55,968 nucleotides of DNA from Tsukamurella sp. M9C (lineage in GTDB: Bacteria; Actinomycetota; Actinomycetes; Mycobacteriales; Mycobacteriaceae). Numbering within the stretch: the stretch's first letter is position 1; each line of letters begins with the position of its first letter. A model generated the notes under the pieces. The model did not search any database and was not told the DNA's origin. It saw nothing but the letters and a program-made list of their open reading frames with translations. This document shows positions 1,418-15,848 of this stretch, in pieces. The stretch lies in NCBI RefSeq assembly GCF_020169415.1, contig NZ_JAIULG010000029.1:1-55968 (forward strand), in the 5' to 3' direction. The translations under genes were made by a program, and so were the position numbers.

Positions 1418-2649
1418 GCGGACCCGCACTGCAGCGGACGCTCGGCCTCGGGGACGCCGTCACCGTCGGCCTCTCCGCGATGATCGGCGCGGGCGTCTTC
1501 GTCGTCTTCGCGCCGGCCGCCGCGGCGGCGGGCTCCGGGCTGTTCCTCGGCCTGGCGATCGCCGCGCTGATCGCGTACTGCAACGCGAGCAGCTCCGCCC
1601 GGCTCGCCGCGCGGTACCCGCAGTCCGGCGGCACCTACGTGTACGGGCGCGAGCGGCTCGGCCCGTTCTGGGGCCACCTCGCCGGCTGGAGCTTCCTGGT
1701 CGGCAAGTCCGCGTCCTGCGCCGCGATGGCGCTCACCGTCGGCCACTACGCCTGGCCCGCCCAGTCGCACGCCGTCGCCGCGGGTGCCGTCGTCGCGCTG
1801 ACCGCCCTCAACGTCGCGGGCGTGGAGCGCTCGGCGCGGGTCGCGCGCGTGATCGTCGCCGTCGTCCTGGCGGTGCTCGTCGCGGTCGCGGTCGCCGCGT
1901 TCACCTCCGGCGCGGCGGAGCCGTCCCGGGTGTTCGACGGTGCGGCCGCCGGCCCGTTCGGGGTGCTGCAGGCCGCGGGCCTGCTGTTCTTCGCGTTCGC
2001 CGGGTACGCGCGCATCGCCACCCTGGGCGAGGAGGTGCGCGATCCGGCCCGGACCCTCCCGCGCGCGATCTTCGTCGCGCTCGCCGTCGCCCTCGGGGTG
2101 TACGTGCTCGTCGGCGTCGCGCTGGTCGTAGTCCTCGGCACGGCCGGGCTCGCGGCCTCGGCCGCGCCGGTCGCCGATGCGGCGCGGGCGGCCGGATTCC
2201 CGGTCGCGGTGGTCACGGTGACCGCCTGCGTCGCGGCGCTGGGTTCGCTGCTGGCGCTGCTGCTCGGCGTCTCCCGCACCGCTCTCGCGATGGCCCGCGA
2301 CGGTCATCTGCCGCGCCCGCTCGCCGCGGTCGACGGCCGGCGCGGGGTCCCGGTGCACGCGGAGCTGGCCGTCGGCGCCGTCGTCACGGTGGTCGCGGCC
2401 ACGGCCGATCTCGGCGCCGCCATCGGCTTCTCGTCGTTCGCGGTACTCGTCTACTACGCCGTGGCGAACGCGTCCGCCTGGACGCTCGACGCCGCGGTCC
2501 GCGCCCGGATCGTGCCCGCCATCGGGCTGGCCGGGTGCCTGCTCGTGGCGCTGTCGCTGCCCGCCGGCTCGGTGTCCGCGGGCATCCTCGTGCTGGTCGC
2601 GGGCGCCCTCGCCTACGCCGTGACCCGCACGAACGGCGCGTCCGGCTAG
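1414..2649 (+). CDS. APC-family amino acid permease
   Basis: A 411-residue integral membrane transporter with about 12 hydrophobic segments. Near residues 18-28 the stretch GLSAMIGAGVF is the TM1 substrate-binding signature of the APC superfamily. YPQSGGTYVYGRERLGP followed by GHLAGW near 70-90 is the conserved TM2-TM3 region. It would import an amino acid or amine with a proton; the substrate cannot be read from sequence. The GTG at 1414 overlaps the TGA of the SRPBCC gene, so an upstream in-frame start at 1066, inside that gene, was rejected. The 3' end meets the convergent YdcF gene, with stops overlapping at 2646-2649. Confidence 0.85.
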   Translation: MSGPALQRTLGLGDAVTVGLSAMIGAGVFVVFAPAAAAAGSGLFLGLAIAALIAYCNASSSARLAARYPQSGGTYVYGRERLGPFWGHLAGWSFLVGKSASCAAMALTVGHYAWPAQSHAVAAGAVVALTALNVAGVERSARVARVIVAVVLAVLVAVAVAAFTSGAAEPSRVFDGAAAGPFGVLQAAGLLFFAFAGYARIATLGEEVRDPARTLPRAIFVALAVALGVYVLVGVALVVVLGTAGLAASAAPVADAARAAGFPVAVVTVTACVAALGSLLALLLGVSRTALAMARDGHLPRPLAAVDGRRGVPVHAELAVGAVVTVVAATADLGAAIGFSSFAVLVYYAVANASAWTLDAAVRARIVPAIGLAGCLLVALSLPAGSVSAGILVLVAGALAYAVTRTNGASG

Positions 2650-3185
2650 CAGCCCGTCTGGTACAGCGCCTTGAGCCAGCCGGCGCTCTGGTAGCCCCAG
2701 CCGAAGACCGTCTCGGCGGTGCCGCGCTGCTCGGGGAAGTCGGTCATCTGCATGGCCCGGCCGTAGCAGCGCTCGAGGATGAAGCGGGCGCGTTCGAGGT
2801 GCGCGGTGGTGGTGACCACGATGATGTCGTCCCAGCCGCGGGCGGCCGCGAGCCGCTGCACCTCCTGGGCCTCGCCGCGGGTGGTCCAGGGCTCGGGAAG
2901 GAAGCAGGTGACCTGTACGCCGGTGATCGTCCGCGCGCAGAGCTCCCGCATCCGGGTGTCGTCGGCGCCGACGGAGTTGGACAGCACGACCTGCGTCGAC
3001 AGGCCCCGCTCCGCCAGGTCGAGGCCGTACTCGAACCGGTCGTAGGGATTCCCGCCGAGCACGACGATCGCGTCCGCGGGCCTGAGTTCCCGGTCGATCT
3101 TCGGCTGCAGGTAGGCGCGGTCGAGGGCGATGCCGACGACGGCGACGAGCACGAGCACCAGGGCGCACGCGATCAGCCGACGCAT
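2646..3185 (-). CDS. YdcF family protein (DUF218), membrane anchored
   Basis: A 179-residue protein with one N-terminal hydrophobic segment (about 4-21) followed by a YdcF/SanA/ElyC-type domain. The sequence PADAIVVLGG is the family's opening strand, and the tail of the fold contains E-x-x-x-T-R-G-E-A and TTTAHLERA. ElyC and SanA act in envelope precursor metabolism, and ElyC affects undecaprenyl-phosphate use, which fits its place as the last gene of a glycan operon. The ATG at 3185 follows a G-rich stretch. An in-frame GTG at 3203 overlaps the preceding stop (GTGA) and would add six residues, so the start is not certain. Confidence 0.75.
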   Translation of the reverse strand: MRRLIACALVLVLVAVVGIALDRAYLQPKIDRELRPADAIVVLGGNPYDRFEYGLDLAERGLSTQVVLSNSVGADDTRMRELCARTITGVQVTCFLPEPWTTRGEAQEVQRLAAARGWDDIIVVTTTAHLERARFILERCYGRAMQMTDFPEQRGTAETVFGWGYQSAGWLKALYQTGC

Positions 3186-3199
3186 CCGCCGCCCCCCGG

Positions 3200-4804
3200 T
3201 CACCGCTGTTCGCACCACTGCAGTATCGCGGTTGCAACATCCGCGCGCACATCGGGGTGATACCCGGGGTGGTCGCCGGCGCCCGGCCGCACGGCGCGGA
3301 CGGTGCCCGCGCGCTGTCGGCCGGCGAGGCGAAGCAGCCGACGGAGGCCCTCGGGGCCGCGCTGGGAGTCGAACCACGCGGCATCGGGCGGGGCGAGGAC
3401 GAGGACCGCGTCGGTCCCCGCCGCGACGACCGGCCGCAGCAGGACCTCGGGGACCTGCGTGACGCCGCGTCGGCCGAGGAGCCGCCAGGCCGGGTAGGGC
3501 AGCCGGGTCCGCAGTAGTTCCTTCAGGCGCCCGCGGGGGCTGCGCGCGAAGGCGGGGTCCGTGCGCGGCACGCCCAGGTCCTGCGCGGGCGCGGCCGTGA
3601 TCCCCGGTTTGAGCCGCCACGAGTAGAGGACCGTGTTCACCAGGACCGTCGTATCCGCCGCGGCCGCGCGGGCGGCGTGCGCGGCGTACCAGGAGCCCGA
3701 GCACACCCCGGCGGTGAGCAGGGGGCCGTCGAGCGCGCGGGCCGCGGCGACCGCGTCGTCCACCCCGGCCGGCGGGAACAGCGCGACGGCCTCGCCCGCG
3801 TCGACGGGGCCCGATTCGCCGGCGCCGCGGCGGTCGAAGCGCAGCGCGGCGCCGCCCGCGGCGGCGACCTCCCGGGCCAGCGCGACCCACGCGCGGTTCG
3901 GGCCGTGCCGGGTGTCGTTGGCGGTCGCGCAGAGCAGTACGGACCGGCGCGGTGCGCCCACGGCGGGGACGGTCCTGATCGCCGCGGCGCCACCGATGTC
4001 CTCGATCCGCTCCTCGACGTCGCCCCACCGCGCCCGGGCGCGGATCTCGGGCGCGACGGTGACGCGCTCCCCGTCGGGCAGGGCGGCGCCCAGCCAGGCG
4101 GCGATGTCGGCGACCGCGGCGTCGGGGATGCGGACCAGGTGCGCGCTCGGTTCGACGAACTCCGGCATGCCGTCGACGGCGATCCGGTCGGCGCCGACGG
4201 GGCCGACGGGTGCGGCGCCGGGGCGCTCCGCGATCAGGACGCGCGGGGCGGCCAGGGCGTCGGCCGGCAGCGTCGCGAGCTCCGCGACGGCCGTGGGGTG
4301 CACGTCGAGGCCGATCCACGTGTCCGGCCCGGCGCCGATCGCCATCCGCGCGAGCGCGCCCTGCGCGCGGGTGAAGGGCCTGCCGCCGATCGGGTCCCAC
4401 AGGACCGCGGCGGGCGGGGTCAGGCCCGCGGCGCCCGCGACGGCCGCGCCCGCCCGCAGCGCCACGACCGCGGGGGCGCGCACCCCCAGATCGCGCAGGT
4501 ACGCGTCCGCGTGCCGGACCGAGACGATCCAGCCCGCGGCGGCGTCGGGCAGGCCCGCGGGGCCGGCGGAGTCGCCCGTGCCGAGGTAGTCGAAGCGGAG
4601 CACGGCGAGGCCGTCGGCGGCGAGCAGGGCGGCGAGCCGGCGCAGCCCGCGCTGGGCGTCGTACTGCTCCTTGGCGAGCGGCGGGACCAGCAGGACCGCG
4701 CCCCGCACCCGGCGCGACGCGGGCAGGTGCAACGCGCCGTACAGCGGCGCGTCGGCCGGGCCGAAATAGGTCCGCAGCTCCAGCGGGGCGTCAGTCGAGG
4801 GCAT
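3200..4804 (-). CDS. Two-part alpha/beta hydrolase-like protein of the glycan operon
   Basis: A 534-residue protein built from two alpha/beta-hydrolase-like halves. The first half (about 1-250) has the oxyanion strand VLLVPPLAKE and FDYLGTGDSAG, but at the expected nucleophile elbow it reads ALRAGA (115-120), with no Ser, Cys or Asp. The second half (about 270-534) has FDRRGAGESG and a G-V-C368-S-G elbow, so the nucleophile would be Cys368. Cys or Ser hydrolases of this layout occur beside exopolysaccharide genes and polyketide clusters, where they may act as thioesterases or acyl transferases. The start overlaps the end of the preceding glycosyltransferase by 14 bp. Function is inferred only from fold and neighbours. 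Confidence 0.6.
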   Translation of the reverse strand: MPSTDAPLELRTYFGPADAPLYGALHLPASRRVRGAVLLVPPLAKEQYDAQRGLRRLAALLAADGLAVLRFDYLGTGDSAGPAGLPDAAAGWIVSVRHADAYLRDLGVRAPAVVALRAGAAVAGAAGLTPPAAVLWDPIGGRPFTRAQGALARMAIGAGPDTWIGLDVHPTAVAELATLPADALAAPRVLIAERPGAAPVGPVGADRIAVDGMPEFVEPSAHLVRIPDAAVADIAAWLGAALPDGERVTVAPEIRARARWGDVEERIEDIGGAAAIRTVPAVGAPRRSVLLCATANDTRHGPNRAWVALAREVAAAGGAALRFDRRGAGESGPVDAGEAVALFPPAGVDDAVAAARALDGPLLTAGVCSGSWYAAHAARAAAADTTVLVNTVLYSWRLKPGITAAPAQDLGVPRTDPAFARSPRGRLKELLRTRLPYPAWRLLGRRGVTQVPEVLLRPVVAAGTDAVLVLAPPDAAWFDSQRGPEGLRRLLRLAGRQRAGTVRAVRPGAGDHPGYHPDVRADVATAILQWCEQR

Positions 4805-5786
4805 CGACGATCTCCCTCGCCCGGTCCGTGTACGTGTTCGCGCCGCCGGTGATCGCGGCGTGCCCGGCGGCGGCGATCCGCGCCGCGGCCGCGGGTTCCG
4901 CCCGCACCCGCGCGACGATGCCGTCGATCTCGGCGGGGTCGTCGTACAGCAGGGCCTCGCGGCCGTCGGCGAGCAGCTCCGCGTGCTCGGCGGTCCGCGG
5001 GCCCACGAACAGACCGCCCGCCGCGGGGACCTCGAAGGTGCGGCAGGTGTGCGTGTCGCGGTTGTCGGAGTTGAGCAGCACCAGGTTCGCGTCGATCGCG
5101 CCGATCGCCGCGGACAGGGCGGTGCCGTACTGCGGGCCGCGCACCGTCGCCCGGCTGCGCACGACGGCGGGCCTCCGGCGCCAGCCCGGGCCGGCGAGAT
5201 AGAACTCCGGGCCGAGCCGGGCGGCGAGGCCCGTGACGAGCGCGGCGCGGTCGGGGCGGGCGTTGCCGACGAAGCCGGCGGCGTACCGCCGTGACGAGCG
5301 CGGCGCGACGGGGCGGTGCCAGTCGGGGTCGTAGGCGCTCCGCACGAGGATCGCGCGCTGCGCCCCGCGCGCGAGCAGCTCCGGCACGTTGTGCGCCTTG
5401 GTGGTGACGATCGCGTCCCAGCCGGGCTCCGCGGCGAGGTACTCGGGGGTGGTGTTGACGGGGTTGGCGACGTCGTCGGCGCTGTAGTGCACGTGCCGGC
5501 CCGCAGGCAGGTTCAGCAGGCGTTCCTGGTCCAAGTGCACGGACGTGTAGCAGAACAGCAGGTCGGCGACGGGCTGCGCCTCGAGCCGCCGGTGCACGGC
5601 CTCGACGGTGGCCGGCGCCCGCCGCCCGGTGCGCTTGGCGTACCACCACGCCGGGCCGCCGCGGCGGGGGAGCGTGACGGCGGTGGTGTCGACGACGGTC
5701 ACGTCGTGCCCCGCCCGGCGGAAGCCCTCGGCGAGGGAACGGGCGTTGCTGCCGTACCAGTCGTCGCCGGCGAACAGGATCCTCAT
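4791..5786 (-). CDS. CgeB-like glycosyltransferase
   Basis: A 331-residue protein opening MRILFAGDDWYGSNARSLAEG, the N-terminal Rossmann strand and loop of CgeB-type glycosyltransferases (GT-B fold). The C-terminal half has [13 protein letters not shown] and a following acidic segment, the nucleotide-sugar binding region of the Glyco_trans_1_2 domain. It should act in the cytoplasm, adding one sugar to the lipid-linked intermediate. Its ATG overlaps the stop of the flippase gene (ATGA), so translation is coupled. The donor and acceptor sugars cannot be told. Confidence 0.75.
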   Translation of the reverse strand: MRILFAGDDWYGSNARSLAEGFRRAGHDVTVVDTTAVTLPRRGGPAWWYAKRTGRRAPATVEAVHRRLEAQPVADLLFCYTSVHLDQERLLNLPAGRHVHYSADDVANPVNTTPEYLAAEPGWDAIVTTKAHNVPELLARGAQRAILVRSAYDPDWHRPVAPRSSRRYAAGFVGNARPDRAALVTGLAARLGPEFYLAGPGWRRRPAVVRSRATVRGPQYGTALSAAIGAIDANLVLLNSDNRDTHTCRTFEVPAAGGLFVGPRTAEHAELLADGREALLYDDPAEIDGIVARVRAEPAAAARIAAAGHAAITGGANTYTDRAREIVDALD

Positions 5787-7024
5787 GCGGCGGCCCCACC
5801 GGCCGGTGCGGGGACCGCCGCGGCTTCCAGGCGCCGGGCCCGCAGGACGGAGAAGCCCGCGGCCGCGGTCTGGGCGGCAACGATCCCGGCCACGACGGTC
5901 AGCGGGTCGTGGGTCCGCAGCGCGACCGCCAGCGTCGCCGCGATGACGACCGCCCCGACCGCGCCGGCCTGCAGCACGCCCCGCGCGTCGCCCAGCACCG
6001 GCAGGACGGCCGTCGCCACGAACGACGCGACCGCCAGGCCGGGGAGGGCCCACGCCTGCACCTGCAGCAACGGGACGGCGCCGTCGAATTCGTCGCCGAA
6101 GAGGAGGGGGAGCAGCCACGGTGCGAGCAGCGTCGCGGCCGCGGCGAGCGCGACTCCGCCGGCCGCGACCAGGAGGATGCCGCGTCGTGCGGTCGCCCAG
6201 AAGGCGTCGGTGTCCCGGCGCGCGAGCCGGGGGAGCAGGCTCACCCCGACGGCGTCCAGCAGCGAGCCGGCCGCCTGCACCGGGCGGTCGCTCGCGCTGA
6301 ACAGGCCCAGCGCGTGCGGCGGGAGCGCCGGCGCGAAGACCGTCGCGGCGCCCGGGCCGTACGACGACGACAGCAGCCGCGCCGCGAACACCGGCGCCCC
6401 CGTGCGCAGGAGTGCGCGCGGCGCGCCGGGCCGGGCCGGGCGGCCGTGGTCGCGGATCGTCCGCGCCCAGGACCACCCGACCGCCAGGACGTTCCCCGCC
6501 AGCAGGCAGCCCATCGCCACCTCCGGCGTCCGGACCTGCGGCAGCAGCGCCACCAGGAGCGCCAGGTAGACGACCCGGCCCGCGGTCTGCTGCGCCACGA
6601 CGGCGCCGAACCGGCCCGTGCCGAGGAGCACCCAGTCGTCGCCGCACGCGCTCACCGACCCGACGACGAGACCCAGCGCGCCCATCTCCACGGCGCGGGG
6701 CACCGGCAGCGCCGCCGCAACCAGGAACAGCGCGGTGAACGCCGCGAGCGCCGCGGCGCGGAGCCCGGCGTAGTCGCCCCGCAGCCGGGCCAGCCCCGGC
6801 TTCTCCGCGCGGGCGGCCACGAACGCCGTGATGCCCAGGTCGGTGCAGAGCGCGCCCAGGAAGTACGTCGACATCGCGATCGCGAGCAGGCCCATCCCGG
6901 CGGGGCCCAGCAGCCGCGCGCACAGCGGGATCGTGACGAGGGTGATCGCGTACTGGCCGTACCGGCCGGCCGAGACGAGGACCACGTCCCGGAGCACCCC
7001 CGCGACGCCGGGGAGCCGCCTCAT
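5783..7024 (-). CDS. Wzx-like polysaccharide flippase
   Basis: A 413-residue polytopic membrane protein with roughly 12-14 hydrophobic segments. It begins with an amphipathic helix and then GRYGQYAITLVTIPLCARLLGPAGMG, the conserved first two helices of Wzx/O-antigen flippases (MOP superfamily). A Wzx-type protein would carry the undecaprenyl-linked oligosaccharide across the inner membrane. Its start overlaps the upstream glycosyltransferase stop and its stop overlaps the downstream start (ATGA both times). No Wzy-like polymerase gene accompanies it in this window. Confidence 0.8.
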   Translation of the reverse strand: MRRLPGVAGVLRDVVLVSAGRYGQYAITLVTIPLCARLLGPAGMGLLAIAMSTYFLGALCTDLGITAFVAARAEKPGLARLRGDYAGLRAAALAAFTALFLVAAALPVPRAVEMGALGLVVGSVSACGDDWVLLGTGRFGAVVAQQTAGRVVYLALLVALLPQVRTPEVAMGCLLAGNVLAVGWSWARTIRDHGRPARPGAPRALLRTGAPVFAARLLSSSYGPGAATVFAPALPPHALGLFSASDRPVQAAGSLLDAVGVSLLPRLARRDTDAFWATARRGILLVAAGGVALAAAATLLAPWLLPLLFGDEFDGAVPLLQVQAWALPGLAVASFVATAVLPVLGDARGVLQAGAVGAVVIAATLAVALRTHDPLTVVAGIVAAQTAAAGFSVLRARRLEAAAVPAPAGGAAA

Positions 7025-8157
7025 CGGACCCGGGCCACCCGCGCCAGCAGGGAGTCCGCGATCGCCGCGGAGGTCTTGAGGTCGAGATCGCGGCCGCGGT
7101 CGCGCGCCGCCGCCCCGAGCTGCTCGCGCAGCTCCCAGTCGGCGATGAGCGCATCGAGCGCGACGGCCAGCTGGTCGGGGCGGCGCGGCGTCACCAGGAC
7201 GCCGGTCTGCCCGTCGACGATGAGCTCCGTCGGCCCGCCGGCGCGGGCGGCGACCACGACCCGGCCCGCGGCCATCGCCTCGGCGACGACCTGCCCGAAG
7301 GGCTCGGTGAGCCGGGAGTAGTGCACCACCACGTCGGCGTCCGCCGCCTCGGCGAGCGGATCCTCGACGTGCCCGGTGAAGGTCACCCGGTGCGCGATGC
7401 CGAGGCGCTCGGCGAGTTCCTCGAGCTCGGCGAGGTACCGATCGTCGCCGTCGAAGTGGGTGCCGCCGACGAACCGCACCTCGGGCTGGGCCTCCATCTG
7501 GGCGAGCGCCCGCAGCAAGAGGTCCTGGCCCTTCCACGGCGTGATCCGGCCGATCATGGCGATCTTCACGCTCTTCGGGGCGCGCTGCGGCGCCGCGGCG
7601 GGGACCGTGCTCAGGTCGACGCCCGGGTGGCACACCGCGGTCGGGCTGCCGCCGGTCGAGATGGTGCGCAGCGTCCCGCGCGAGTTGGCGAGGTAGCCGG
7701 ACGCGGCCATCCGGCCGAGCAGACGCAGCGGGAAGCGCTTGCGGCCGAAGTACTCCGCGCTCACCCGGTCGTGCACCTGCCACACCAGGGGGATGCCCGT
7801 GCGACGGGAGGCGACCGCTCCGACGAAGAGCGACTTCGTCGACTCGGCGACCACGACGTCGGCGTCGGCGGCGAGCAGCATCGGGGCGAGCCGCCGGCCG
7901 GCGCGGTAGAGGCCGACGGCGGCGCGCAGCACGCCCACCGGCCCGGCGTCGCGGCGCACCGTCGACGGGCGGCCGGGGACGACGGTGACCGGCACGTCCG
8001 CCGCCTCGAGCACGTCGGTCAGGGGGCCGGGCGCGAGCAGCATCACGGAGGCGGGGACGCCGCGGTGGCGGAGCTCTCCGGCGAGGCGGGCGAAGGCGAG
8101 CTCCGCGCCCGAAGGTGCGGCGGTGTGCCCGAGGAAGACGGGCCGGCGCGCGCTCAT
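7021..8157 (-). CDS. Glycosyltransferase family 4
   Basis: A 378-residue GT-B glycosyltransferase. The N-terminal acceptor half begins FLGHTAAPSGAELA. The C-terminal donor half has IGRITPWKGQ, EPFGQVVAEAMAAG and a following GGPTELI, the E-x7-E nucleotide-sugar motif of GT4 enzymes. It retains stereochemistry if typical of GT4. The sugar is unknown. It is coupled to both neighbours by 4-bp overlaps (ATGA) and belongs to the seven-gene minus-strand operon. Confidence 0.85.
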   Translation of the reverse strand: MSARRPVFLGHTAAPSGAELAFARLAGELRHRGVPASVMLLAPGPLTDVLEAADVPVTVVPGRPSTVRRDAGPVGVLRAAVGLYRAGRRLAPMLLAADADVVVAESTKSLFVGAVASRRTGIPLVWQVHDRVSAEYFGRKRFPLRLLGRMAASGYLANSRGTLRTISTGGSPTAVCHPGVDLSTVPAAAPQRAPKSVKIAMIGRITPWKGQDLLLRALAQMEAQPEVRFVGGTHFDGDDRYLAELEELAERLGIAHRVTFTGHVEDPLAEAADADVVVHYSRLTEPFGQVVAEAMAAGRVVVAARAGGPTELIVDGQTGVLVTPRRPDQLAVALDALIADWELREQLGAAARDRGRDLDLKTSAAIADSLLARVARVR

Positions 8158-9218
8158 GCGGCGACCGCCCGGTAGAGGGCCGCGTGCCGCGCGGCGGCGG
8201 CGTCCCAGGTGAAGCGCTCGGCGTGCGCGCGGCAGGCCGCCGCCGAGGGGCGCGCACCGTCGAGCCCCGCGGCCAGACGGTCCGCGAGGGCCCCGGCGTC
8301 GCCCGCGGGCACGACGAGATCGGGGGCGAGATCGCGGACCGCGTCGGGGAGGCCGCCGACGTCCGTGACCACCGGGGCGCGGCCGGAGGCGAGGGACTCG
8401 AGGGCGACGAGCCCGAAACCCTCCCAAGCCAGGGACGGGACCGCCGTCAGCGTCGCGGCGGCGTACCGGCGCGCGAGGTCGGCGTCGTCGATCGTTCCCA
8501 CGAAGGTCACAGTATCGGTGATCCCCAGTTCCGCCGCGCGTTGCCGCAGAAGGTCGCGCTGCGAGCCGTCGCCCACGACGTCGAGCCTGGCGTCGGGGTG
8601 TCGTGCCAGCACCGCGGGCCAGGCCCGCAGCAGCACGTCGATGCCCATCCGGCGCTCCAGCCGCCGGACGCAGAGCACGCGGGGCGGACCGTCTGGGGCG
8701 GGGGCCGCGGCGAAGCGCGCGAGGTCGACGCCGGGCGGGATCACGTCGATCGCCCCGCGGTCGGCGCCGTACCGGGCGACGAGCACGTCGGCGAAGGCCT
8801 GCGAGAGCACCACGAACCGGTCGCTGCCGCGGTAGCGGGCGCGTTCGATGAGCGCCTTGACCGCCACGGCGGCGCGGCCCTCGCCCGCGGCGGCGCTCTC
8901 CTGGGCCCACGGGCCGTGGAAGTGGGTGACGAGCGCCGCCCCGCGGGGCGCCGGGCCGAACAGCGCGAAGTGCCGGTCGAGGACCGCGGTGTCCGCGGGC
9001 CCGGGTCGACGGGACGCCCGGATCCGGGCGGCCGTCGAGCCGGCGTCGGGCCCCCAGGTCGCGCCCCCCGACTCCGGGTCGCCGAAGGCCGCGGCGGTGG
9101 CGGCGACGTCGGTCCGCCGGCGCAGGGCCGCGAACAGGTCCGCGAAGTAGCGGGGGAGACCGCCGGGCTCGGTGCCCGGCCAGGTGGTCCCGGTCAGGTG
9201 GACGGGGACCGCGGTCAC
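8154..9218 (-). CDS. Glycosyltransferase family 4
   Basis: A 354-residue GT4 enzyme. The N-terminal half begins VPVHLTGTTWPGTEPGGLPRY, with the glycine-rich acceptor loop. The donor half shows VRRLERRMGID, FVGTIDDADLARRYAAA and EGFGLVALESLASG, the E-x7-E motif. The GTG at 9218 overlaps the stop of the ligase gene (GTGA), so the start is fixed by coupling; upstream ATG codons in this frame fall inside the ligase gene. It is the second gene of the operon, placed directly after the amino acid:carrier-protein ligase. Confidence 0.85.
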   Translation of the reverse strand: MTAVPVHLTGTTWPGTEPGGLPRYFADLFAALRRRTDVAATAAAFGDPESGGATWGPDAGSTAARIRASRRPGPADTAVLDRHFALFGPAPRGAALVTHFHGPWAQESAAAGEGRAAVAVKALIERARYRGSDRFVVLSQAFADVLVARYGADRGAIDVIPPGVDLARFAAAPAPDGPPRVLCVRRLERRMGIDVLLRAWPAVLARHPDARLDVVGDGSQRDLLRQRAAELGITDTVTFVGTIDDADLARRYAAATLTAVPSLAWEGFGLVALESLASGRAPVVTDVGGLPDAVRDLAPDLVVPAGDAGALADRLAAGLDGARPSAAACRAHAERFTWDAAAARHAALYRAVAA

Positions 9219-10168
9219 AGCTGGGCGGAGACGGAACCGGGCCACGTCGCGCGGTCGAGGCCGTGCCGCGCGAGCAGCGCCAGGGCGATCCGTTCGATGC
9301 CGAAGCCGAGGCAGGCACTGTGCGCGGGCGCGCCGTCCACGGTGGTGATGTCGAAGTGCACCCCGAAATGATCGCGGTGGTAGTTGCTGGACGCGACGGC
9401 GACCCCCGGAACGTCCTCGCCGTAGATGGGCACCAGCAGTTCGGTCTTGAGGTTCTCCGCCGTCTGGTTGGCGGCGAGCATGCGGCCCGCGCGGCCGAAG
9501 AAGGGATCCGTCGCGGGGGTCTGCCGGACGGCGAGGCCGAGGTCGCTGAGCAGGTCGGCGGCGCGCGCCACCCACGTGTCGCGGTGCGCGACGGCCGCCC
9601 GGTCCGAGCCGACGCGGACGATCTCGCGCATGCGGAAGGACTGCATCCGGGCCGGATCCGCGGAGGGCTCGCGCCGGAAGCAGTGGCCGGAGACGTCGAC
9701 CCAGGCGCCGTCGCGGGGGAGCTGCCCGCTCAGGACCGGGTACACCGAGTGGCACGCCGACGGCACGAGCGCGACGTCGCTGGCGTGGAAGTGGCCGCCC
9801 CAGTCGTGGCCCGCGTTGCGGCCAGCGAGCAGGAGGCGGTGCTCGGCGTCGCCGCCGGTGTACGTGGAGACCGCGGCCGCGAGCTGCGGGAACGACACGA
9901 TGTAGTCGGTCCGGTCGAGGTACTCGCGCGGCATCACGGGCGGGAAGGACAGCACCGTGGCGGCGCCGCCGTGCACGTCGCGCACCGTGGCGCCGATCAG
10001 CGCGTCGATCGCGGCCGTGAGCTCCGCGAACGCCGCGCCCTGCCCGTACACGCCGTCGACGCCCGACGGGATGAGGAGCCCCGCGTCGAAGAGCGACGCG
10101 CGGAACTCCTGCTGACGTGCGTGCAGGTCAGTAAAGTCGATCGCACGTGCTGCTGCGGCCTGCGTCAT
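9215..10168 (-). CDS. Amino acid:[carrier protein] ligase (class II aminoacyl-tRNA synthetase homologue)
   Basis: A 317-residue relative of the catalytic domain of atypical seryl-tRNA synthetases, without a tRNA-binding domain. In the family, studied in Bradyrhizobium, the enzyme activates glycine or alanine with ATP and loads it on the phosphopantetheine arm of a small carrier protein. By position and spacing the three zinc ligands of that family correspond to Cys139 (SACHS), Glu182 (FRMRE) and Cys286 (HSACLGFG). SACLGFGIERI is class II motif 3 and FRREPS lies in the motif 2 region. The ATG at 10168 follows a strong GGAGAAGAG; the in-frame GTG at 10201 lacks such a site. The divergent gene at 10309 encodes the expected carrier protein. 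The amino acid used cannot be read here. Confidence 0.85.
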   Translation of the reverse strand: MTQAAAARAIDFTDLHARQQEFRASLFDAGLLIPSGVDGVYGQGAAFAELTAAIDALIGATVRDVHGGAATVLSFPPVMPREYLDRTDYIVSFPQLAAAVSTYTGGDAEHRLLLAGRNAGHDWGGHFHASDVALVPSACHSVYPVLSGQLPRDGAWVDVSGHCFRREPSADPARMQSFRMREIVRVGSDRAAVAHRDTWVARAADLLSDLGLAVRQTPATDPFFGRAGRMLAANQTAENLKTELLVPIYGEDVPGVAVASSNYHRDHFGVHFDITTVDGAPAHSACLGFGIERIALALLARHGLDRATWPGSVSAQL

Positions 10169-10194
10169 CGGTCTCTTCTCCGTGGCTGGAACCG

Positions 10195-10225
10195 TTGTCA
10201 CTGCAACATGTTACCAGGCTAGGGT
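10195..10225 (+). promoter_or_regulatory. Promoter of the carrier-protein operon with 19-bp spacer
   Basis: -35 TTGTCA (10195-10200), 19-bp spacer, -10 TAGGGT (10220-10225). The spacer holds the palindrome AACATGTT (10205-10212). The first 13 bases fit TTGTCACWGCAWC, which also occurs at the priming glycosyltransferase promoter (minus strand, 13469 onward), so both may share a regulator. Confidence 0.4.
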
Positions 10226-10308
10226 GTACGACGGCGGCGCGGGAGTCGCGACTGCAAAAGGATTCGCCGCCGGTGTCGCGCCGGTGCGCGACGCTGGTGG
10301 GAGGTGCG

Positions 10309-10545
10309 GTGGACGAGGCGATCCGCTCGATCGTGGGGCGTCATGGCCGGTTGACCAGGCCGATCGCGGAAATTGCGGGTGGTGATGATCTGTTTGCACT
10401 CGGTCTCACGTCCCACGCGGCCGTGAACGTCATGCTGGCTATCGAAGACAGATTCACTATCGAGTTCCCAGACTCGTGCATGAGCAAGAACACATTCAGC
10501 ACTCTGGATTCGATCGCGGCGACGGTCCGCGAGCTCGTCGGCTGA
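10309..10545 (+). CDS. Aminoacyl carrier protein (acyl carrier protein family)
   Basis: A 78-residue, acidic, helical carrier protein. The phosphopantetheine attachment site is Ser35 in DLFALGLTS35H. Ordinary acyl carrier proteins have D-S-L at this place; G-L-T-S-H is what I recall for carrier proteins paired with amino acid:CP ligases. The ligase gene is the divergent neighbour, and a phosphopantetheinyl transferase follows two genes downstream. The GTG at 10309 was chosen because GGAGG lies 4 nt upstream; the in-frame codons from 10147 onward would add an unrelated tail. It should act in the cytoplasm as the aminoacyl-thioester donor. Confidence 0.85.
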   Translation: MDEAIRSIVGRHGRLTRPIAEIAGGDDLFALGLTSHAAVNVMLAIEDRFTIEFPDSCMSKNTFSTLDSIAATVRELVG

Positions 10546-10552
10546 GGCGCCG

Positions 10553-11659
10553 ATGACGCGCATCGCCGTCGTCCACGAGCGGTGGACCGAACAGGGCGGC
10601 TCCGAGAACGTCGCGCGGGCGCTGGTCGACGCCTGGCCCGGCAGCCGCCTCCACGTCGCCTTCGCCGATCCGCGCACCGTCCCCGACGAACTGCGGGGCC
10701 GGATCGCCGTCACGGGGCTCGACGGGGTGCACCGGGCCCTCGGGCGGCGCTCCCACGCACCGCTCATCCCCCTCGCGCCGGCCGCCTGGCGCCGCCACCG
10801 CCCGGACCCCGGCGCGGACGCTGTCGTCATCAGTCACCACGCGATGGCGGTCTCGGCCGCGCAGTCCTGGCCGGACGCCGCGGTCGTCGCCTACGTGCAC
10901 TCGCCCGCCCGCTGGGCGTGGCTGCCCGAGCTGCGGTCCGGGGAGGCCTTCGGTGGCGCCGGCCGGCTCGCGCTCGCGGCGCTCGCCGCGCAGACCCGCG
11001 CGGTCGAGACCGCCGCGGTGCCCTACCTCGACGTCGTGGTCGCCAACTCCACCGCCGTGGCCGAGCGCATCGAGCGCTGGTGGGGCGTCCCGGCCCGGGT
11101 GGTCGCGCCGCCCGTCGACGTCGCGCGGTTCACGCCCGACGGTGCCGCCCCCGGCGACTTCTTCCTGGTCGCGGGGCGCCTCGTGCCGTACCGCCGGGTC
11201 GACCTCGCCATCCGCGCGGCCCAGCGCGCGGGGGTGCGGCTCGTCGTGGCCGGCGACGGGCGGCACGACGCCGCGCTGCGCCGCATCGCCGGCGACGAGA
11301 CCGTCTTCCTCGGCCGCGTCTCGGACGCGGACATGGTGCGCCTGCAGCGCGACGCGATCGCCACCGTCATGCCCGGCGAGGAGGACTTCGGCATCGTGCC
11401 GGTGGAGGCCATGGCGGCGGGCACCCCGGTCCTGGCCCGCGCCGCGGGCGGCGCGCTGGACACCGTGGTGCCCGGGGTCTCCGGGGTGCTCGTGCCCGAC
11501 GGCCCCGACGAGCCGTTCACGGACGCCCTCGCCGCGGCGATGCGCGGCCTGCGGCCCGCGGAGTTCGACCCGGCGGTGCTGCGCGCGCACGCCGAGCGGT
11601 TCTCCGTGCCGGTCTTCCAGGAGCGGATGCGGGCGATCGTCGCGGAGGCGGTCCGGTGA
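10553..11659 (+). CDS. Glycosyltransferase family 4
   Basis: A 368-residue GT-B enzyme beginning MTRIAVVHERWTEQGGSENV, with the acceptor-side glycine loop of GT4 mannosyl- and other transferases. The donor half has VAGRLVPYRRVDLAI, FLGRVSDADMVRL and GEEDFGIVPVEAMAAG, the E-x7-E motif. AYVHSPARWAWLPE near residue 100 is typical of a WbaZ-like subgroup. It lies 7 bp after the carrier protein and overlaps the next start (GTGA), so the three genes form one operon. The donor sugar is not known. Confidence 0.85.
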   Translation: MTRIAVVHERWTEQGGSENVARALVDAWPGSRLHVAFADPRTVPDELRGRIAVTGLDGVHRALGRRSHAPLIPLAPAAWRRHRPDPGADAVVISHHAMAVSAAQSWPDAAVVAYVHSPARWAWLPELRSGEAFGGAGRLALAALAAQTRAVETAAVPYLDVVVANSTAVAERIERWWGVPARVVAPPVDVARFTPDGAAPGDFFLVAGRLVPYRRVDLAIRAAQRAGVRLVVAGDGRHDAALRRIAGDETVFLGRVSDADMVRLQRDAIATVMPGEEDFGIVPVEAMAAGTPVLARAAGGALDTVVPGVSGVLVPDGPDEPFTDALAAAMRGLRPAEFDPAVLRAHAERFSVPVFQERMRAIVAEAVR

Positions 11660-12033
11660 ACCGGGTGGGGATCGACCTCGCCGAGGTGGCGGGCATCGAG
11701 GAATCGGTGGCGCTCTTCGGTGCGCGCTTCACCGAGCGGGTCTTCACCCCGGGCGAGCTCGCCACGTGCGCCGGCGACGCGCGCCGTCTCGCCGCGCGGT
11801 GGGCGGCGAAGGAGGCCGCGATCAAGGCGCTGCGCCTCGGCCCCGACACGGCGACCCCGCCGCGCGAGATCGAGGTCGTCGGCACGCCGCACGGGCCGGA
11901 GCTGCGGCTGCACGGCGGCCTCGCCGCGCGCGCCCGCGAGCAGGGCTGGGTCCGCGCCGAGGTCTCGCTCACCCACACCGACCGCACCGCCGCCGCGGTG
12001 GTGGTCGCCGAGCTCGCGGAGCCCGGCTCCTAG
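11656..12033 (+). CDS. Holo-[acyl-carrier-protein] synthase-like phosphopantetheinyl transferase
   Basis: A 125-residue AcpS-type protein. It has the two family motifs, VGIDLAEV at the N-terminus and RWAAKEAAIKAL in the middle, and ends with the strand SLTHTDRTAAAVVVA. AcpS enzymes transfer 4'-phosphopantetheine from CoA to the carrier-protein serine. Being in the same operon as the carrier protein at 10309, it probably activates that protein specifically. The GTG start overlaps the glycosyltransferase stop. The gene ends in a 4-bp convergent overlap with the priming transferase. Confidence 0.85.
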   Translation: MNRVGIDLAEVAGIEESVALFGARFTERVFTPGELATCAGDARRLAARWAAKEAAIKALRLGPDTATPPREIEVVGTPHGPELRLHGGLAARAREQGWVRAEVSLTHTDRTAAAVVVAELAEPGS

Positions 12034-13400
12034 CGTCCGCCGCGACCGAAGAGCACGGTGCCGACGGAGATCAGGAGAATCTTCGCGTCGAGCCACAGGC
12101 TCCAGTTCTCGATGTAGTAGTTGTCGTACGACGCGCGGTCCCGGATGTCGGTGTCGCCGCGCAGCCCGTGGATCGCGGCCCACCCGGTCAGGCCCACCAT
12201 CACCCGGTGTCGGGACTGATAGGCGGGGATCTCCGCGCCGAAGCGGTTGGCGAAGTGCGGGCGCTCCGGCCGCGGGCCCACCACCGACATGTCGCCCCGC
12301 ACCACGTTCCACAGCTGCGGGAGCTCGTCGATCGAGTGGCGTCGCAGGAACCGGCCGAGCCGGGTGATCCGGAGCCGGTCGTCGGTCCAGTCGCGGTCCG
12401 ACTCCTCGTCGGGGACCGGCCGCATGGTGCGGAACTTGTACAGCGAGAACAGTCGGCCGTCCTGGCCGACCCTGGTCTGCCGGAACAGGATCGGCGCGGT
12501 CGGCTCCTGGAGCTTGATCGCCACGGATACCAGGAGCAGGAGGGGGGCGAGCAGTACCAGGCCCACGAGCGAGGTGACGAACGAGGTCACACGCTTGACC
12601 CGCCAGTGGCTCGAGCGCAGCGCGAGTCGGCGCACCAGGACCAGCGGGGTGGTGTGGATACGGTCCATGTCGCGGTCCTGGTGCACGAACTCGTACAGGC
12701 GCGGGACGACGTAGATCTCGCAGTCCAGGGTGTCGCAGTCGCGCAGCGGTTCGACCAGCGTGGAGTCGCGGTCGCGGGAGAACGCGACGATCACCGTGTC
12801 GATGTCGTGCTCGCGGATCAGGCGGGCCAGGTCGTTGCGGCGCGGGATCACCTCGACCGGGAACGCGGTGGCGTCGAGCGGGTCGTCGTCCATCACCATC
12901 ACGGGCCGCAGCCCGTACTCGGGGAACATGAACATCGAATGGACCAGCTCGCCCGCGACCTTGCCGCCGCCGATGACCAGGGTCCGTCCGCCGTTCTCGG
13001 GGTGCTGTGCGCGGTGCCGCCGGACCGCGCCGTAGTACAGCACGCGCACGCCGAACAGCACCGCCCAGCACAGCGCGGCGCCGATCAGCTGGTAGTGGTC
13101 GTCCTGCCAGACGGTGATGACGCCGATCGGCGCCAGCATCCACCCGGCGATCGCCAGCTGCGGTGCGGCGTCGAGCGCGCTCAGGGTGATCCGGGTGCGG
13201 TACAGCCCGAAGAGGTAGAAGACGCTGACGGCGAGGGAAGCGCCGAGGAGGCCCTCGACCGCGTGGGTGACGTGCGAGGGGGACGAGGAGTTCGTCGCCG
13301 CCAGGAAGGCGTAGATGATCAGGAAGTCGAAGAATGCGAGCGCCCACGAGTGGCGGCGCATGCGGCGGCCGCTGCCGGCCGGTGCACCGTTCAGGCTCAT
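12030..13400 (-). CDS. Polyprenyl-phosphate priming sugar transferase (exopolysaccharide type)
   Basis: A 456-residue WbaP/CpsE-type enzyme that transfers sugar-1-phosphate to undecaprenyl phosphate and starts glycan assembly. Residues about 15-110 hold four membrane segments, about 125-245 a Rossmann-like middle domain (TLVIGGGKVAGEL), then one more membrane segment and the catalytic bacterial sugar transferase domain with LYKFRTM, ELPQLWNVVRGDMS and VVGPRPERP. The length is normal for the family. The ATG at 13400 follows GAGGAG at good spacing. It has its own promoter (13439-13469) facing the condensation-domain gene. Confidence 0.9.
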   Translation of the reverse strand: MSLNGAPAGSGRRMRRHSWALAFFDFLIIYAFLAATNSSSPSHVTHAVEGLLGASLAVSVFYLFGLYRTRITLSALDAAPQLAIAGWMLAPIGVITVWQDDHYQLIGAALCWAVLFGVRVLYYGAVRRHRAQHPENGGRTLVIGGGKVAGELVHSMFMFPEYGLRPVMVMDDDPLDATAFPVEVIPRRNDLARLIREHDIDTVIVAFSRDRDSTLVEPLRDCDTLDCEIYVVPRLYEFVHQDRDMDRIHTTPLVLVRRLALRSSHWRVKRVTSFVTSLVGLVLLAPLLLLVSVAIKLQEPTAPILFRQTRVGQDGRLFSLYKFRTMRPVPDEESDRDWTDDRLRITRLGRFLRRHSIDELPQLWNVVRGDMSVVGPRPERPHFANRFGAEIPAYQSRHRVMVGLTGWAAIHGLRGDTDIRDRASYDNYYIENWSLWLDAKILLISVGTVLFGRGGR

Positions 13401-13438
13401 GTGCTCCTCGGGACTTTCGGATGTTGCTTCGTCGCTCG

Positions 13439-13469
13439 AATATAGGACATTGTCGCGATGCTGTGACAA
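13439..13469 (-). promoter_or_regulatory. Promoter of the priming transferase with 19-bp spacer and dyad
   Basis: Minus strand: -35 TTGTCA (13469-13464), 19-bp spacer, -10 TATATT (13444-13439), then a 31-nt leader with GAGGAG. The spacer contains an inverted repeat, TTGTCGC and GTGACAA (plus strand 13450-13469, one mismatch), a possible operator. Confidence 0.45.
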
Positions 13470-13497
13470 CCAGTGCATTCTGCCATTCGCCCGGACG

Positions 13498-13503
13498 TAG
13501 GGT
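13498..13503 (+). promoter_or_regulatory. -10 element of the condensation-domain gene
   Basis: TAGGGT ends 7 nt before the GTG at 13511. No Shine-Dalgarno sequence is present, so a leaderless start is likely. No clear -35 is seen. Confidence 0.35.
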
Positions 13504-13510
13504 GAGCGGC

Positions 13511-14929
13511 GTGCAGCCACTCCCTTCCCAGGTCGCGATGCTGCAGCTCGCCGCCGAGCAGCCGGGCGCACGGTCGCTCGTCATCGACGCGGCGTGGCGC
13601 ACCGATCTCCGGATCGACACCGCCGCCCTCGAGCGGGCGGCGGCGGGTGCGCTCGCCGAGACCGAGGCCGCCGAGATCGGGGCCGTCGTCGACGGCGGCG
13701 CGCGGTTCGTGGCCGCCCGTCCCGCCCCCGTCGGGGTGGAGCGCTTCGGCACGGAGGAGGCCTACGCGGCGTGGCGCGCAGGCGGCACGCTGCAGCTCGA
13801 CGGTGGGCCGCTGGTGCGCGCGACCATCGTGCGGGTCGGCGGCTCCCACGTCGTGCGGCTCCTCGCGCATCACGCCGTCCTCGACGGCTACGCCGTCACC
13901 CGGGTCTTCCGCCGGATCGTCGCCCGCCTGCGCGCCGAGGCCGACGGTGCGCCCCTCCCGCACGAGCGCCTCGGCGACCTCGCGGCCCTCGCCGCGGAGG
14001 CGGCCCCACTGCGCCCGCCCGACGCCGCGTTCTGGTCCGCCGCGACGGACGGCGTCGGCGACCCCGGCCGCGAGATCGCCTTCGCGGACCGCGTCGCGCC
14101 ACCGTCGGGGCGCCCGCGGCAGCGCCGGGCGCGGATCTCGGCGCCCGGGATCGCGGACCGTCGGACGTGGCCGGCGGAGGCCGTCGCCGTCGTCGCGGCG
14201 TACACCGCCCGGTACCTCGGCACCGCCGAAGCCCACGTCGGTGTGACCGCGGGCCTGCGCCGCACCGCCCTCGAGCGGGCCACGCCCGTGCAGTGGATGG
14301 CCGTGGTGCCCACCCGCCTGGCCGTGCCGCCGGACGCGACGCCCGCGACCCTCGCCGCCGACGTGCGGCGCTGGCTGGCGGCGGCGTCCGAGCGGATCGC
14401 GGGCGGCGAGCGGCCCGAGCAGCTGCTCACTGTGGTCCCCGCCGCCTGGCGAACCGGGCGCCTGCACGGGCCCATCGTCAACGTGCTCCCGGACGTGCGG
14501 ACCGACGGCTGGTCGCTCGACGTGACGGCGTGGGGGCCGGTCCCGGACTGCCTGATCTCGGTGTACTCCGAGCCCGGGGACGAGCTCGTCGTCGACGGCG
14601 TCTTCCATCCCGAGCTCTACGACGCGGCACGGGCCGCCGCCCATGTCGACGCGGTCGCGGCGCTGCTGGGCGCCGCCCTCGCCGCGCCGGATGCGCCGCT
14701 GCCCGCGGTGCCCGCCCGGCCGGTGGATCCGGACCGGATCGCGGTGCCCGGCGGGTGGGCGGTGCCCGCCCGGATCCGCGCCGCGCTCGTCGCGGCGGGC
14801 TTCCCCGCGGACGGCGTCGAGCTGCGGGCCGCGCCGCCGGTCACCGTCGTGCTGCACGGCGTGGACGTCGCGCGCCTGCCGGACGCGCGGGCCGTCCTGC
14901 CGCCGGGCGTGCGCGTCCGGATCAGCTGA
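13511..14929 (+). CDS. Condensation-domain acyltransferase (PapA-like)
   Basis: A 472-residue stand-alone condensation-superfamily protein. The catalytic motif HHxxxDG is present as H120-H121-A-V-L-D125-G126, in the order found in NRPS condensation domains and in mycobacterial PapA enzymes, which move acyl groups from carrier proteins or CoA to hydroxyls or amines. The core covers about 1-395. The last 70 residues are a proline- and valine-rich tail I do not recognise. It lies between the priming transferase and a methyltransferase, next to the carrier-protein system, so it is the best candidate to move the loaded amino acid. That link is inference. The GTG at 13511 fits a leaderless start; GTG 13502 is the alternative. 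Confidence 0.7.
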   Translation: MQPLPSQVAMLQLAAEQPGARSLVIDAAWRTDLRIDTAALERAAAGALAETEAAEIGAVVDGGARFVAARPAPVGVERFGTEEAYAAWRAGGTLQLDGGPLVRATIVRVGGSHVVRLLAHHAVLDGYAVTRVFRRIVARLRAEADGAPLPHERLGDLAALAAEAAPLRPPDAAFWSAATDGVGDPGREIAFADRVAPPSGRPRQRRARISAPGIADRRTWPAEAVAVVAAYTARYLGTAEAHVGVTAGLRRTALERATPVQWMAVVPTRLAVPPDATPATLAADVRRWLAAASERIAGGERPEQLLTVVPAAWRTGRLHGPIVNVLPDVRTDGWSLDVTAWGPVPDCLISVYSEPGDELVVDGVFHPELYDAARAAAHVDAVAALLGAALAAPDAPLPAVPARPVDPDRIAVPGGWAVPARIRAALVAAGFPADGVELRAAPPVTVVLHGVDVARLPDARAVLPPGVRVRIS

Positions 14930-14990: not shown

Positions 14991-15848
14991 ATGGCCGACC
15001 ACGCACACGCGCACTCGCACACCCATCCGGACTGGGAGGCCCTCGCGGCCGAGATCGAGGCGGAGGGGGAGACCCTCCTGCCGTACGTGACGCAGGCGCT
15101 CGACGTCATCGCCGGCGGCGTACCCGCGCCGGGGACGGTGCTGGACGTCGGCTCCGGCCCGGGAGTGTTCTCCACGGCGCTGGCAGCGCGGTTCCCACAG
15201 GCGCGTGTGATCGCGGTCGACGGCGCCCCCGCACTGCTGGACCGCGCCCGGGACCGCGCGACGGCGGCCGGGAACCCGATCGAGACGCTCCCCACCGACC
15301 TGCCCGCGGGGTTCGCGGAGCTGCCCGCCGCCGATCTCATCTGGACCGCGCAGACGATGCACCACGTGGGGGATCAGGGCGCCGCGGTCGCGGCGCTCGC
15401 GAGCCGGCTCAATCCGGGCGGCGTGCTCGCGGTGGCCGAGGGCGGCCTTCCCTCGCGGTTCCTCCCGCGCGACATCGGGCTCGGGCGCCCGGGCCTCGCC
15501 GAGCGGCTCGACGCTCTGCAGGCCGTGGGCTTCGGGGAGATGCGGGCCGCGCTCGATGGCACCGTCGACGCGCCGGAGGACTGGCCCGCGCTGCTGCGGG
15601 CGGCGGGGCTGCGGGACGTGCGGGCCCGCACCTTCCTGGTGGACCGCCCCGCCCCGCTCGACGACGGGGCCCGCCGCGGCGTGGCCCAGATGCTGGGCCG
15701 CTACCTGCGGATGGCGGACCGGCTCGACCCGGACGACGCGGACGTCCTGCGCCGGCTCACCGACCCGGAGGACCCGCAGAACGTGCGACGCCGCCCCGAT
15801 GCCTTCGTGCTGGCCGCACGAACGGTGTACATCGGGACGGCGCCGTGA
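14991..15848 (+). CDS. Class I SAM-dependent methyltransferase
   Basis: A 285-residue methyltransferase. A His-rich start (HAHAHSHTH, residues 4-12) precedes a helical cap, then motif I VLDVGSGPGVF near 46-56, an acidic strand VIAVDGAP, and DLIWTAQTMHHVGD, the motif IV/post-motif region. The substrate is unknown. The polyhistidine segment could bind metal, or may only reflect repeats. It follows the condensation-domain gene by 61 bp on the same strand and may belong to the same locus, for example to methylate the glycan or lipid. It converges on the LGFP lipoprotein gene 13 bp away. Confidence 0.75.
   Translation: MADHAHAHSHTHPDWEALAAEIEAEGETLLPYVTQALDVIAGGVPAPGTVLDVGSGPGVFSTALAARFPQARVIAVDGAPALLDRARDRATAAGNPIETLPTDLPAGFAELPAADLIWTAQTMHHVGDQGAAVAALASRLNPGGVLAVAEGGLPSRFLPRDIGLGRPGLAERLDALQAVGFGEMRAALDGTVDAPEDWPALLRAAGLRDVRARTFLVDRPAPLDDGARRGVAQMLGRYLRMADRLDPDDADVLRRLTDPEDPQNVRRRPDAFVLAARTVYIGTAP

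Follow-up and report, generated by a model that had tools for sequence, protein, structure and literature searches.

A gene cluster at positions 2646-14929 of contig NZ_JAIULG010000029.1 of Tsukamurella sp. M9C (genome size 4.73 Mb; the window analysed here is a stretch of 55,968 nucleotides of this contig) probably encodes an aminoacyl-carrier pathway that serves a surface glycan, in which a loading enzyme, a carrier protein and a transferase of the cysteine-hydrolase type would feed a lipid-linked glycan. The loading enzyme (LIG) is an amino acid:carrier-protein ligase. Enzymes of this kind were described in 2010 (cited in PMC9437257), and the parts of that 2022 review available to us still call their role unknown, in agreement with a preliminary description of this DNA, which knew of no settled physiological role for them.

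The partner of LIG that emerges from genome comparison is a tandem alpha/beta hydrolase (HYD). Among 151 sampled genomes of the home family as defined by GTDB, 50 carry LIG, and HYD was detected in 52: in 50 of the 50 LIG-positive genomes and in 2 of the 101 LIG-negative ones (Fisher test 4e-38, computed without correction for shared descent). HYD is a more general partner of the ligase than the condensation-domain protein (CON), and the preliminary description missed it.

Ligase, carrier protein and cluster layout

The cluster consists of two divergent operons, a convergent gene for a priming transferase and a gene for the condensation-domain protein:

9215-10201, minus strand: LIG, class II synthetase-like amino acid:carrier-protein ligase (NF005479; 317 aa from ATG 10168, 328 aa from GTG 10201)
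10309-10545, plus strand: CP, carrier protein, phosphopantetheine site Ser35 in GLTSH (NF005480 over cut-off, PF00550)
3200-4804, minus strand: HYD, tandem alpha/beta hydrolase, proposed aminoacyl transferase (TIGR03101 and TIGR03100, below cut-off)
11656-12033, plus strand: AcpS-type phosphopantetheinyl transferase (PF01648, E 3.7e-14)
13511-14929, plus strand: CON, stand-alone condensation-domain protein of the nonribosomal peptide synthetase (NRPS) type, HHAVLDG, C-terminal extension (Pfam Condensation, E 0.0012, below cut-off)
8154-9218, minus strand: GTb, GT4-type glycosyltransferase (PF00534, E 9.6e-33)
7021-8157, minus strand: GTa, GT4-type glycosyltransferase (PF00534, E 3.6e-35)
5783-7024, minus strand: FLIP, Wzx-type flippase (PF01943, E 8.5e-9, and PF13440, E 1.7e-7, both over cut-off)
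4791-5786, minus strand: GTcg, glycosyltransferase, Glyco_trans_1_2 (PF13524, E 1.1e-21)
10553-11659, plus strand: GTc, GT4-type glycosyltransferase (PF00534, E 6.7e-24)
12030-13400, minus strand: PGT, priming polyprenyl glycosylphosphotransferase (TIGR03025, E 1.6e-107, over cut-off; PF02397)
2646-3185, minus strand: DUF218 protein, last gene of the LIG operon (PF02698, E 3.3e-11)
14991-15848, plus strand: methyltransferase downstream of CON, possibly part of the cluster (PF13649, E 1e-14)

The minus-strand operon runs in the order LIG, GTb, GTa, FLIP, GTcg, HYD, DUF218; each junction from LIG to GTcg is a four-base overlap, GTcg and HYD overlap by 14 bases, and the DUF218 gene starts 14 bases past HYD. 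On the plus strand the order is CP, GTc, AcpS, with an overlap of 4 bp between GTc and AcpS, and the starts of LIG and CP are separated by about 110-140 bases, depending on the start codon of LIG. The end of PGT abuts AcpS, and then follow CON and the methyltransferase gene, which adjoins the locus in most Tsukamurella main loci. The preliminary description had named the ligase, carrier protein, AcpS, condensation-domain protein, four glycosyltransferases, flippase and priming transferase, with their characteristic residues, and all of these were confirmed in the region 2646-14929; the genes at 3200-4804 (HYD) and 2646-3185 (DUF218) had no mention in it.

Of the 14 PF00534 matches that pass the cut-off in the host genome (4.73 Mb), three fall within this 12.3 kb against 0.036 expected (Poisson P about 8e-6), so that the gene set is not a chance grouping. 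PF01648 is found at three places in the genome, the AcpS gene of the cluster being one. The priming transferase, glycosyltransferases and Wzx flippase of a Wzx/Wzy-type cluster are all present, and no Wzy polymerase or Wzz was found among the locus proteins scanned with general family libraries. Scans for promoters and for terminators each returned a single site and were uninformative for the cluster.

LIG scores 399.3 bits against NF005479, "amino acid--[acyl-carrier-protein] ligase" (cut-off 357, E 9.5e-120), and matches no Pfam family at E 0.01. Its best PDB matches are to amino acid--[acyl-carrier-protein] ligase 1 (4h2w, E 8e-67; 3mey, E 5e-65), and residues 34-313 can be aligned to these solved enzymes. 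The preliminary description gave Cys139, Glu182 and Cys286 (numbered from ATG 10168) as zinc ligands; they do align with the positions that we take to be the zinc ligands of the 4h2w-type ligase, and across 78 homologues the three columns hold Cys in 78/78, Glu in 76/78 (the other two have Asp) and Cys in 78/78. The carrier protein, which adjoins LIG and is its dedicated carrier, reaches 92.7 bits against NF005480 (cut-off 72), and Ser35, found in GLTSH as had been claimed, corresponds to a column with Ser in 72 of 72 homologues. Family membership and the conserved residues suggest that LIG loads CP with an amino acid.

In a sample of the phylum LIG was found in 10 of 396 genomes, 4 of them over cut-off (the host and two other family genomes included); around one alphaproteobacterium it was found in 10 of 240 (5 over cut-off), and around one gammaproteobacterium in 6 of 229 (3 over cut-off).

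The tandem hydrolase and the neighbourhoods of the ligase

Neighbouring genes were mapped in 52 family loci (51 fetched places in the family and the window itself) and in 28 further loci, nearly all from beyond the GTDB family, within about 10 kb of LIG or to the contig end. The profiles used were built from the gene clusters of the loci themselves; they derive mainly from Mycobacteriales, so that distant families are missed and glycan genes are undercounted, and several of the 28 further loci have flanks shorter than 3 kb. As for the counting, L123 and L124, whose ligase homologues are remote and score under the cut-off, belong to the 28 further loci and stand outside the 78-row residue counts; L122 has two ligases, of which the better was counted; L047 was replaced by L136 from the same contig; L041 (Gordonia otitidis) is tallied among the further loci, its membership of the same GTDB family being probable. 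L033, L036, L037, L038, L040 and L043 match genomes already counted and were dropped from the tallies, and three Tsukamurella loci (L034, L035, L039) were mapped separately and stand outside them.

Against the hydrolase families of exosortase-A loci HYD scores 53.2 bits for TIGR03101 (cut-off 202.75) and 59.8 for TIGR03100 (cut-off 168.45); judged by these profile scores it is a relative, not a member, of the hydr2 and hydr1 families. Its 53 PDB profile matches are of the hydrolase type. The C-terminal half contains G-x-C-x-G with Cys368, as well as His512, and the alignment points to a Cys-Asp-His triad. Among the 46 HYD rows near LIG, six of which lack the protein end in the alignment, this Cys is present in 45/45 readable rows, the GDH His in 40/40 and the Asp in 39/40. 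In the N-terminal half the place of the nucleophile is taken by Arg in 40/45, and this half is apparently reduced to a pseudo-enzyme. HMMER alignments pair the Cys with the serine of GLSMG in an MHETase, and the Arg with the serine of GFSLG in a different hydrolase. Replacement of Ser by Cys favours acyl transfer in several alpha/beta hydrolases, and this analogy, with the Cys nucleophile and the co-occurrence with LIG, suggests that HYD is a transferase.

The pattern of HYD follows that of LIG also in detail. Four genomes (G003, G007, G018 and G027) have neither gene, whereas congeneric genomes carry both. In genus g28, all 6 LIG-positive genomes have HYD at a distance from LIG, next to homologues of PGT and GTc. 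Among the 101 LIG-negative genomes HYD was found in G069 and G124 alone, with the best 9 first-look candidates scored in most genomes. In these two (loci L145 and L146) CP and AcpS lie near HYD, the amino acid:carrier-protein ligase is absent, the carrier motif is the same G[LM]TSH, and Cys and Arg recur at the HYD elbows. In both genomes no more than about 3 kb separate CP from an AMP-binding gene, possibly a natural exchange of the loader; in G124 a protein with adenylation, carrier and thioesterase domains (A-PCP-TE) is encoded just upstream of HYD, and a P450 is also present.

Near LIG in the 52 family loci we found CP in 50, AcpS in 37, HYD in 32, an acyl-CoA dehydrogenase (ACAD) in 35, DUF1839 in 32, a GH2-like gene in 32 and any detected glycan gene in 35; the corresponding numbers for the 28 further loci are CP 22, ACAD 22, HYD 14, DUF1839 12 and a detected glycan gene 5. 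At the genome level DUF1839 occurs in 35 of the 50 LIG-positive genomes, in 0 of the 101 LIG-negative ones and in 0 of 10 Tsukamurella. A remark in the portion of PMC10318531 available to us proposes that DUF1839 perhaps processes cell-wall glycans in an acyl-CoA-dependent manner. In many ligase loci a GH2/beta-mannosidase-like protein (cluster c5; L066, 7158-9566) adjoins DUF1839; the one that was scanned has no catalytic GH2 domain by Pfam, and the protein may not be a glycosidase. The motif-2 variants of the ligase (FRHE/FRMHE versus FRRE/FRMRE) were compared with the occurrence of the dehydrogenase: the 44 loci with both dehydrogenase and DUF1839 divide into 30 His..His, 14 His..Arg and 0 Arg..Arg, a pattern that may reflect descent.

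The linkage of ligase and glycan genes, which the preliminary description expected to be conserved in related genomes, was borne out. A glycan gene was detected near the ligase in 12 of 12 Tsukamurella loci (two of them with the priming transferase alone) and in 23 of the 40 other family loci, 29 of which have HYD or a glycan gene; the detected linkage is weaker in the 28 further loci. The order GTcg-FLIP-GTa-GTb-LIG is kept, at about 45-64% identity, in G037 (Segniliparus), G079, G119 and G143, and the Segniliparus cluster adds a Wzz-like protein, below cut-off. A Rhodoglobus locus has GT4 and GT2 genes, and a Variovorax locus with Wzy_C, Wzz, Poly_export and GT4 genes is a clear exopolysaccharide locus; LIG, CP and HYD are also present in a Salinibacterium strain. 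In related clusters a 462-residue protein is encoded between GTcg and a Wzz-like gene (c27; L040, 15377-16765); it has no Pfam match, is hydrophobic to the eye, is a candidate polymerase and is absent from the Tsukamurella main locus.

These neighbourhoods bear on the simplest alternative, an island of independent genes in which LIG has no connection with the glycan. It was already disfavoured. In genera g24 and g28 the set LIG-CP-ACAD-DUF1839-GH2 indeed occurs with no convincing glycan gene nearby, as such an island would have it; the four-base overlaps inside the LIG operon, the gene order kept in Segniliparus and the three other genomes, and the near-perfect co-occurrence of LIG and HYD all speak against it, and we consider it very improbable.

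The condensation protein and the Tsukamurella variant

Profile A2, used for CON, hits ObiF1 (6n8e, 5e-21), CDA peptide synthetase I (4jn3, 5e-14), 4znm (5e-8) and 1l5a (1e-4) in the PDB; the CON homologue of G100 passes the Pfam Condensation cut-off, below which CON of the window remains. We take 4znm and 1l5a to be SgcC5 and VibH, free-standing condensation domains of NRPS systems. CON is like them in standing alone and in having HHxxxDG; it differs in its weak sequence similarity, in an extra C-terminal part and in that its acceptor would be a glycan. Free-standing condensation domains provide a precedent for moving a carrier-bound acyl group to an acceptor that is not a carrier. A PapA-type acyltransferase was also considered for CON and is disfavoured: none of the nine PDB sequences at E <=0.01 is so named, and NRPS condensation domains are.

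CON is present in 10 of 12 Tsukamurella loci, in 0 of 40 other family loci and in 0 of 28 further loci. A universal transferase is rejected for it, being confined to Tsukamurella among the mapped loci; of the proposal in the preliminary description, in which glycine, alanine or a similar amino acid goes to a lipid-linked sugar and yields an aminoacylated envelope glycan or glycolipid, the conserved tie between ligase and glycan genes is supported, and no result here favours glycine or alanine as the amino acid, a glycolipid as the product or the condensation protein as the general transfer enzyme. The Tsukamurella loci are also distinct in what they lack, since none of the 12 mapped has ACAD, DUF1839 or GH2.

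The two loci without CON, L096 (G030) and L098 (G100), are also without CP, HYD, the GT4 genes and AcpS, and retain LIG, DUF218, PGT and the methyltransferase; the DUF218 gene thus remains with LIG even in such reduced loci. In both genomes a second cluster, at another place, comprises LIG, CP, GTc, CON (29% identical), GTb, GTa, FLIP, GTcg, c27 and HYD. The LIG of these second clusters groups with that of G037 (Segniliparus) and not with the main Tsukamurella clade (support 100/97 and 100/99), so that CON travels with the set in two ligase lineages. The CON motif in this second version is DHAVLDG, in which the second His is kept and the first lost. Among the loci mapped separately, L034 and L035 have the standard set up to the ends of their contigs, and in L039 (Tsukamurella sp. 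PLM1, about 9800-11100) CP is intact, the match to the ligase falls in three different frames, and HYD, GT4, PGT and CON are all missing there; this may be decay or an assembly error.

The resemblance of CON to NRPS domains, small-molecule ones included (6n8e, 4znm, 1l5a), fits a different product, namely a glycosylated small-molecule natural product for which LIG loads CP, CON and HYD join and release the aminoacyl group and the glycosyltransferases decorate the molecule. The genomes G069 and G124, with HYD, CP and AcpS near AMP-binding enzymes, and in G124 also the P450 and the A-PCP-TE protein, would agree with such a product. We hold it to be unlikely: the priming polyprenyl transferase and the Wzx-type flippase are of kinds that act on envelope glycans, related clusters add the Wzz-like protein (below cut-off) or Wzy_C, Wzz and Poly_export, and the 19 proteins examined around the locus include no multidomain NRPS or polyketide synthase (PKS), the only other transporter there being an amino-acid permease.

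Still less probable, in our estimate, is that LIG and CP make aminoacyl-CP and HYD serves only as a housekeeping thioesterase clearing mis-loaded CP, with CON making an N-acyl amino acid or ester destined for a lipid and not for the glycan. In favour of it, HYD has the hydrolase fold by sequence, and CON does hit CDA peptide synthetase I, the first condensation domain of which is presumably lipo-initiating. A Cys kept in 45/45 rows together with an apparent pseudo-enzyme as first domain would, in turn, be unusual for a plain editing hydrolase, and the HYD of g28 adjoins glycan genes while lying apart from LIG.

Some genes around the cluster are also kept in Tsukamurella. The amino-acid permease gene (PF13520, 1417-2649) converges on the end of DUF218 and is kept beside Tsukamurella loci; tied to the pathway by its position alone, it might bring in the substrate or simply belong to the backbone. 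A thioesterase-like gene (16497-17264) and a gene like that of the catalase-peroxidase KatG (17404-19623) flank the cluster in Tsukamurella main loci and are probably conserved backbone.

Proposed pathway and related systems

In the pathway that we favour, AcpS would arm CP with phosphopantetheine, and LIG would make the adenylate of a small amino acid and then the CP thioester, as characterised homologues do. The Cys of the C-terminal half of HYD would accept the aminoacyl group from CP and hand it on to a lipid-linked oligosaccharide, at one of its hydroxyl or amino groups; this oligosaccharide would be built by PGT and the four glycosyltransferases and exported by the flippase after the transfer. 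In Tsukamurella, CON might perform the transfer itself or add a second acyl group. In many relatives the acyl-CoA dehydrogenase and DUF1839 would first modify the carrier-bound group, a step that the Tsukamurella loci would have lost or never had. The analysis shows the gene content, the conservation of residues, the linkage and the co-occurrence; the substrate, the direction of the transfer by HYD, the acceptor and the topology are what we infer, the last two being drawn from the neighbouring genes.

Several observations weigh against this pathway. No glycan gene was detected near LIG in 17 of the 52 family loci and in 23 of the 28 further loci. HYD was not detected near LIG in 20 of the 52 family loci, being present elsewhere in the same genomes, and the negatives of the HYD search are not exhaustive. 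In G069 and G124 the surroundings of HYD and CP resemble loci for small-molecule biosynthesis, and a search of the host genome for a homologue of the candidate polymerase c27 found none, which is a weak negative. Finally, the neutral arabinomannan of T. pulmonis, the one published Tsukamurella polysaccharide structure that we found, gives no N-/O-acetyl or carboxyl signals (PMC6070502); the product would thus be another glycan, or would lose a labile ester on extraction.

With respect to the Bradyrhizobium Bll0957-type ligases (PDB 4h2w, 3mey), LIG belongs to the same family by the curated cut-off and shares the zinc-ligand positions and a dedicated small CP. Unlike in these relatives, its operon holds glycosyltransferases, a flippase and HYD, and the dehydrogenase and DUF1839 found beside many LIG relatives are missing at the Tsukamurella ligase.

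The Dlt system (DltA-DltC-DltB-DltD), by which lipoteichoic acid is D-alanylated, is described in the portion of PMC12930378 that we could draw on and is similar in its scheme, going through an adenylate and a carrier thioester to a surface polymer, the end point proposed here as well. The two differ in that DltA is an AMP-forming enzyme and LIG a relative of class II synthetases, and in that the transfer in the LIG cluster would be cytoplasmic. Scans of the cluster proteins named neither the MBOAT DltB family nor the DltD family, and HYD has a weak match (E 1.9e-4) to 7d78, a "DltD domain-containing protein".

A further parallel in gene content is offered by the exosortase-A (XrtA) exopolysaccharide module, made of the TIGR03098 ligase, an acyl carrier protein (ACP), the hydrolases TIGR03101 (hydr2) and TIGR03100 (hydr1), the TIGR03099 decarboxylase and TIGR03013. 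With the LIG cluster it has in common a related hydrolase pair (fused in HYD), a carrier and a polyprenyl sugar transferase; its loader is AMP-forming, unlike LIG, and no decarboxylase was named in the LIG cluster. Exosortase or PEP-CTERM proteins were not named in general scans of the cluster proteins, and no whole-genome search for them was made.

For this comparison we took 14 gammaproteobacterial loci over the TIGR03100 cut-off, out of 143 genomes. The HYD profile (A1, built from 14 HYD proteins) matches both hydr1 and hydr2 in 14 of 14. The hydr1 elbow, GLCD, has Cys in 14/14, and the hydr2 elbow has Arg in 11/14, the pattern having found no elbow in the other three, so that the pair is divided as the two halves of HYD are; Cys and Arg at the elbows are features observed here, and not a published definition of the two families. 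NCBIfam scans of two of these loci, five proteins each, gave the TIGR03098 ligase in both, TIGR03099 in one, and in the other TIGR03013 and a carrier protein with weak similarity to NF005480. To our knowledge the function of the exosortase-A module of ligase, carrier and hydrolases is unassigned; NCBIfam names hydr1 and hydr2 merely as hydrolases. A word search of the main text of the paper on PEP-CTERM and EpsH (PMC1569441) met none of the terms hydrolase, ligase, carrier protein and decarboxylase.

A broader idea, which we put forward tentatively and with less conviction than the pathway itself, is that CP and the Cys-type tandem hydrolase form a fixed transfer unit with exchangeable loaders, aminoacylating lipid-linked sugars in the cytoplasm. 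The loader would be either a synthetase-like ligase, as in the LIG family of several phyla, or an AMP-forming one, as in the exosortase-A loci, G069 and G124; the groups attached would be amino acids, or derivatives made by the dehydrogenase and DUF1839.

Neither the link of the ligase with HYD and glycan genes nor that with exosortase-A was found in the open-access literature searched, mostly at the level of abstracts; the nearest statement is the remark on DUF1839 in PMC10318531. The conserved set proposes for the ligase family a definite partner in HYD, surface glycans as the class of product and a role that could be tested, with genomes such as G069 and G124, where HYD and CP occur with AMP-forming enzymes in place of the ligase, as a natural control. 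It also ties the ligase family to the ligase-carrier-hydrolase genes of exosortase-A loci. If true, the unit with exchangeable loaders would be an unrecognised general route of glycan aminoacylation, and it would explain two unassigned systems together.

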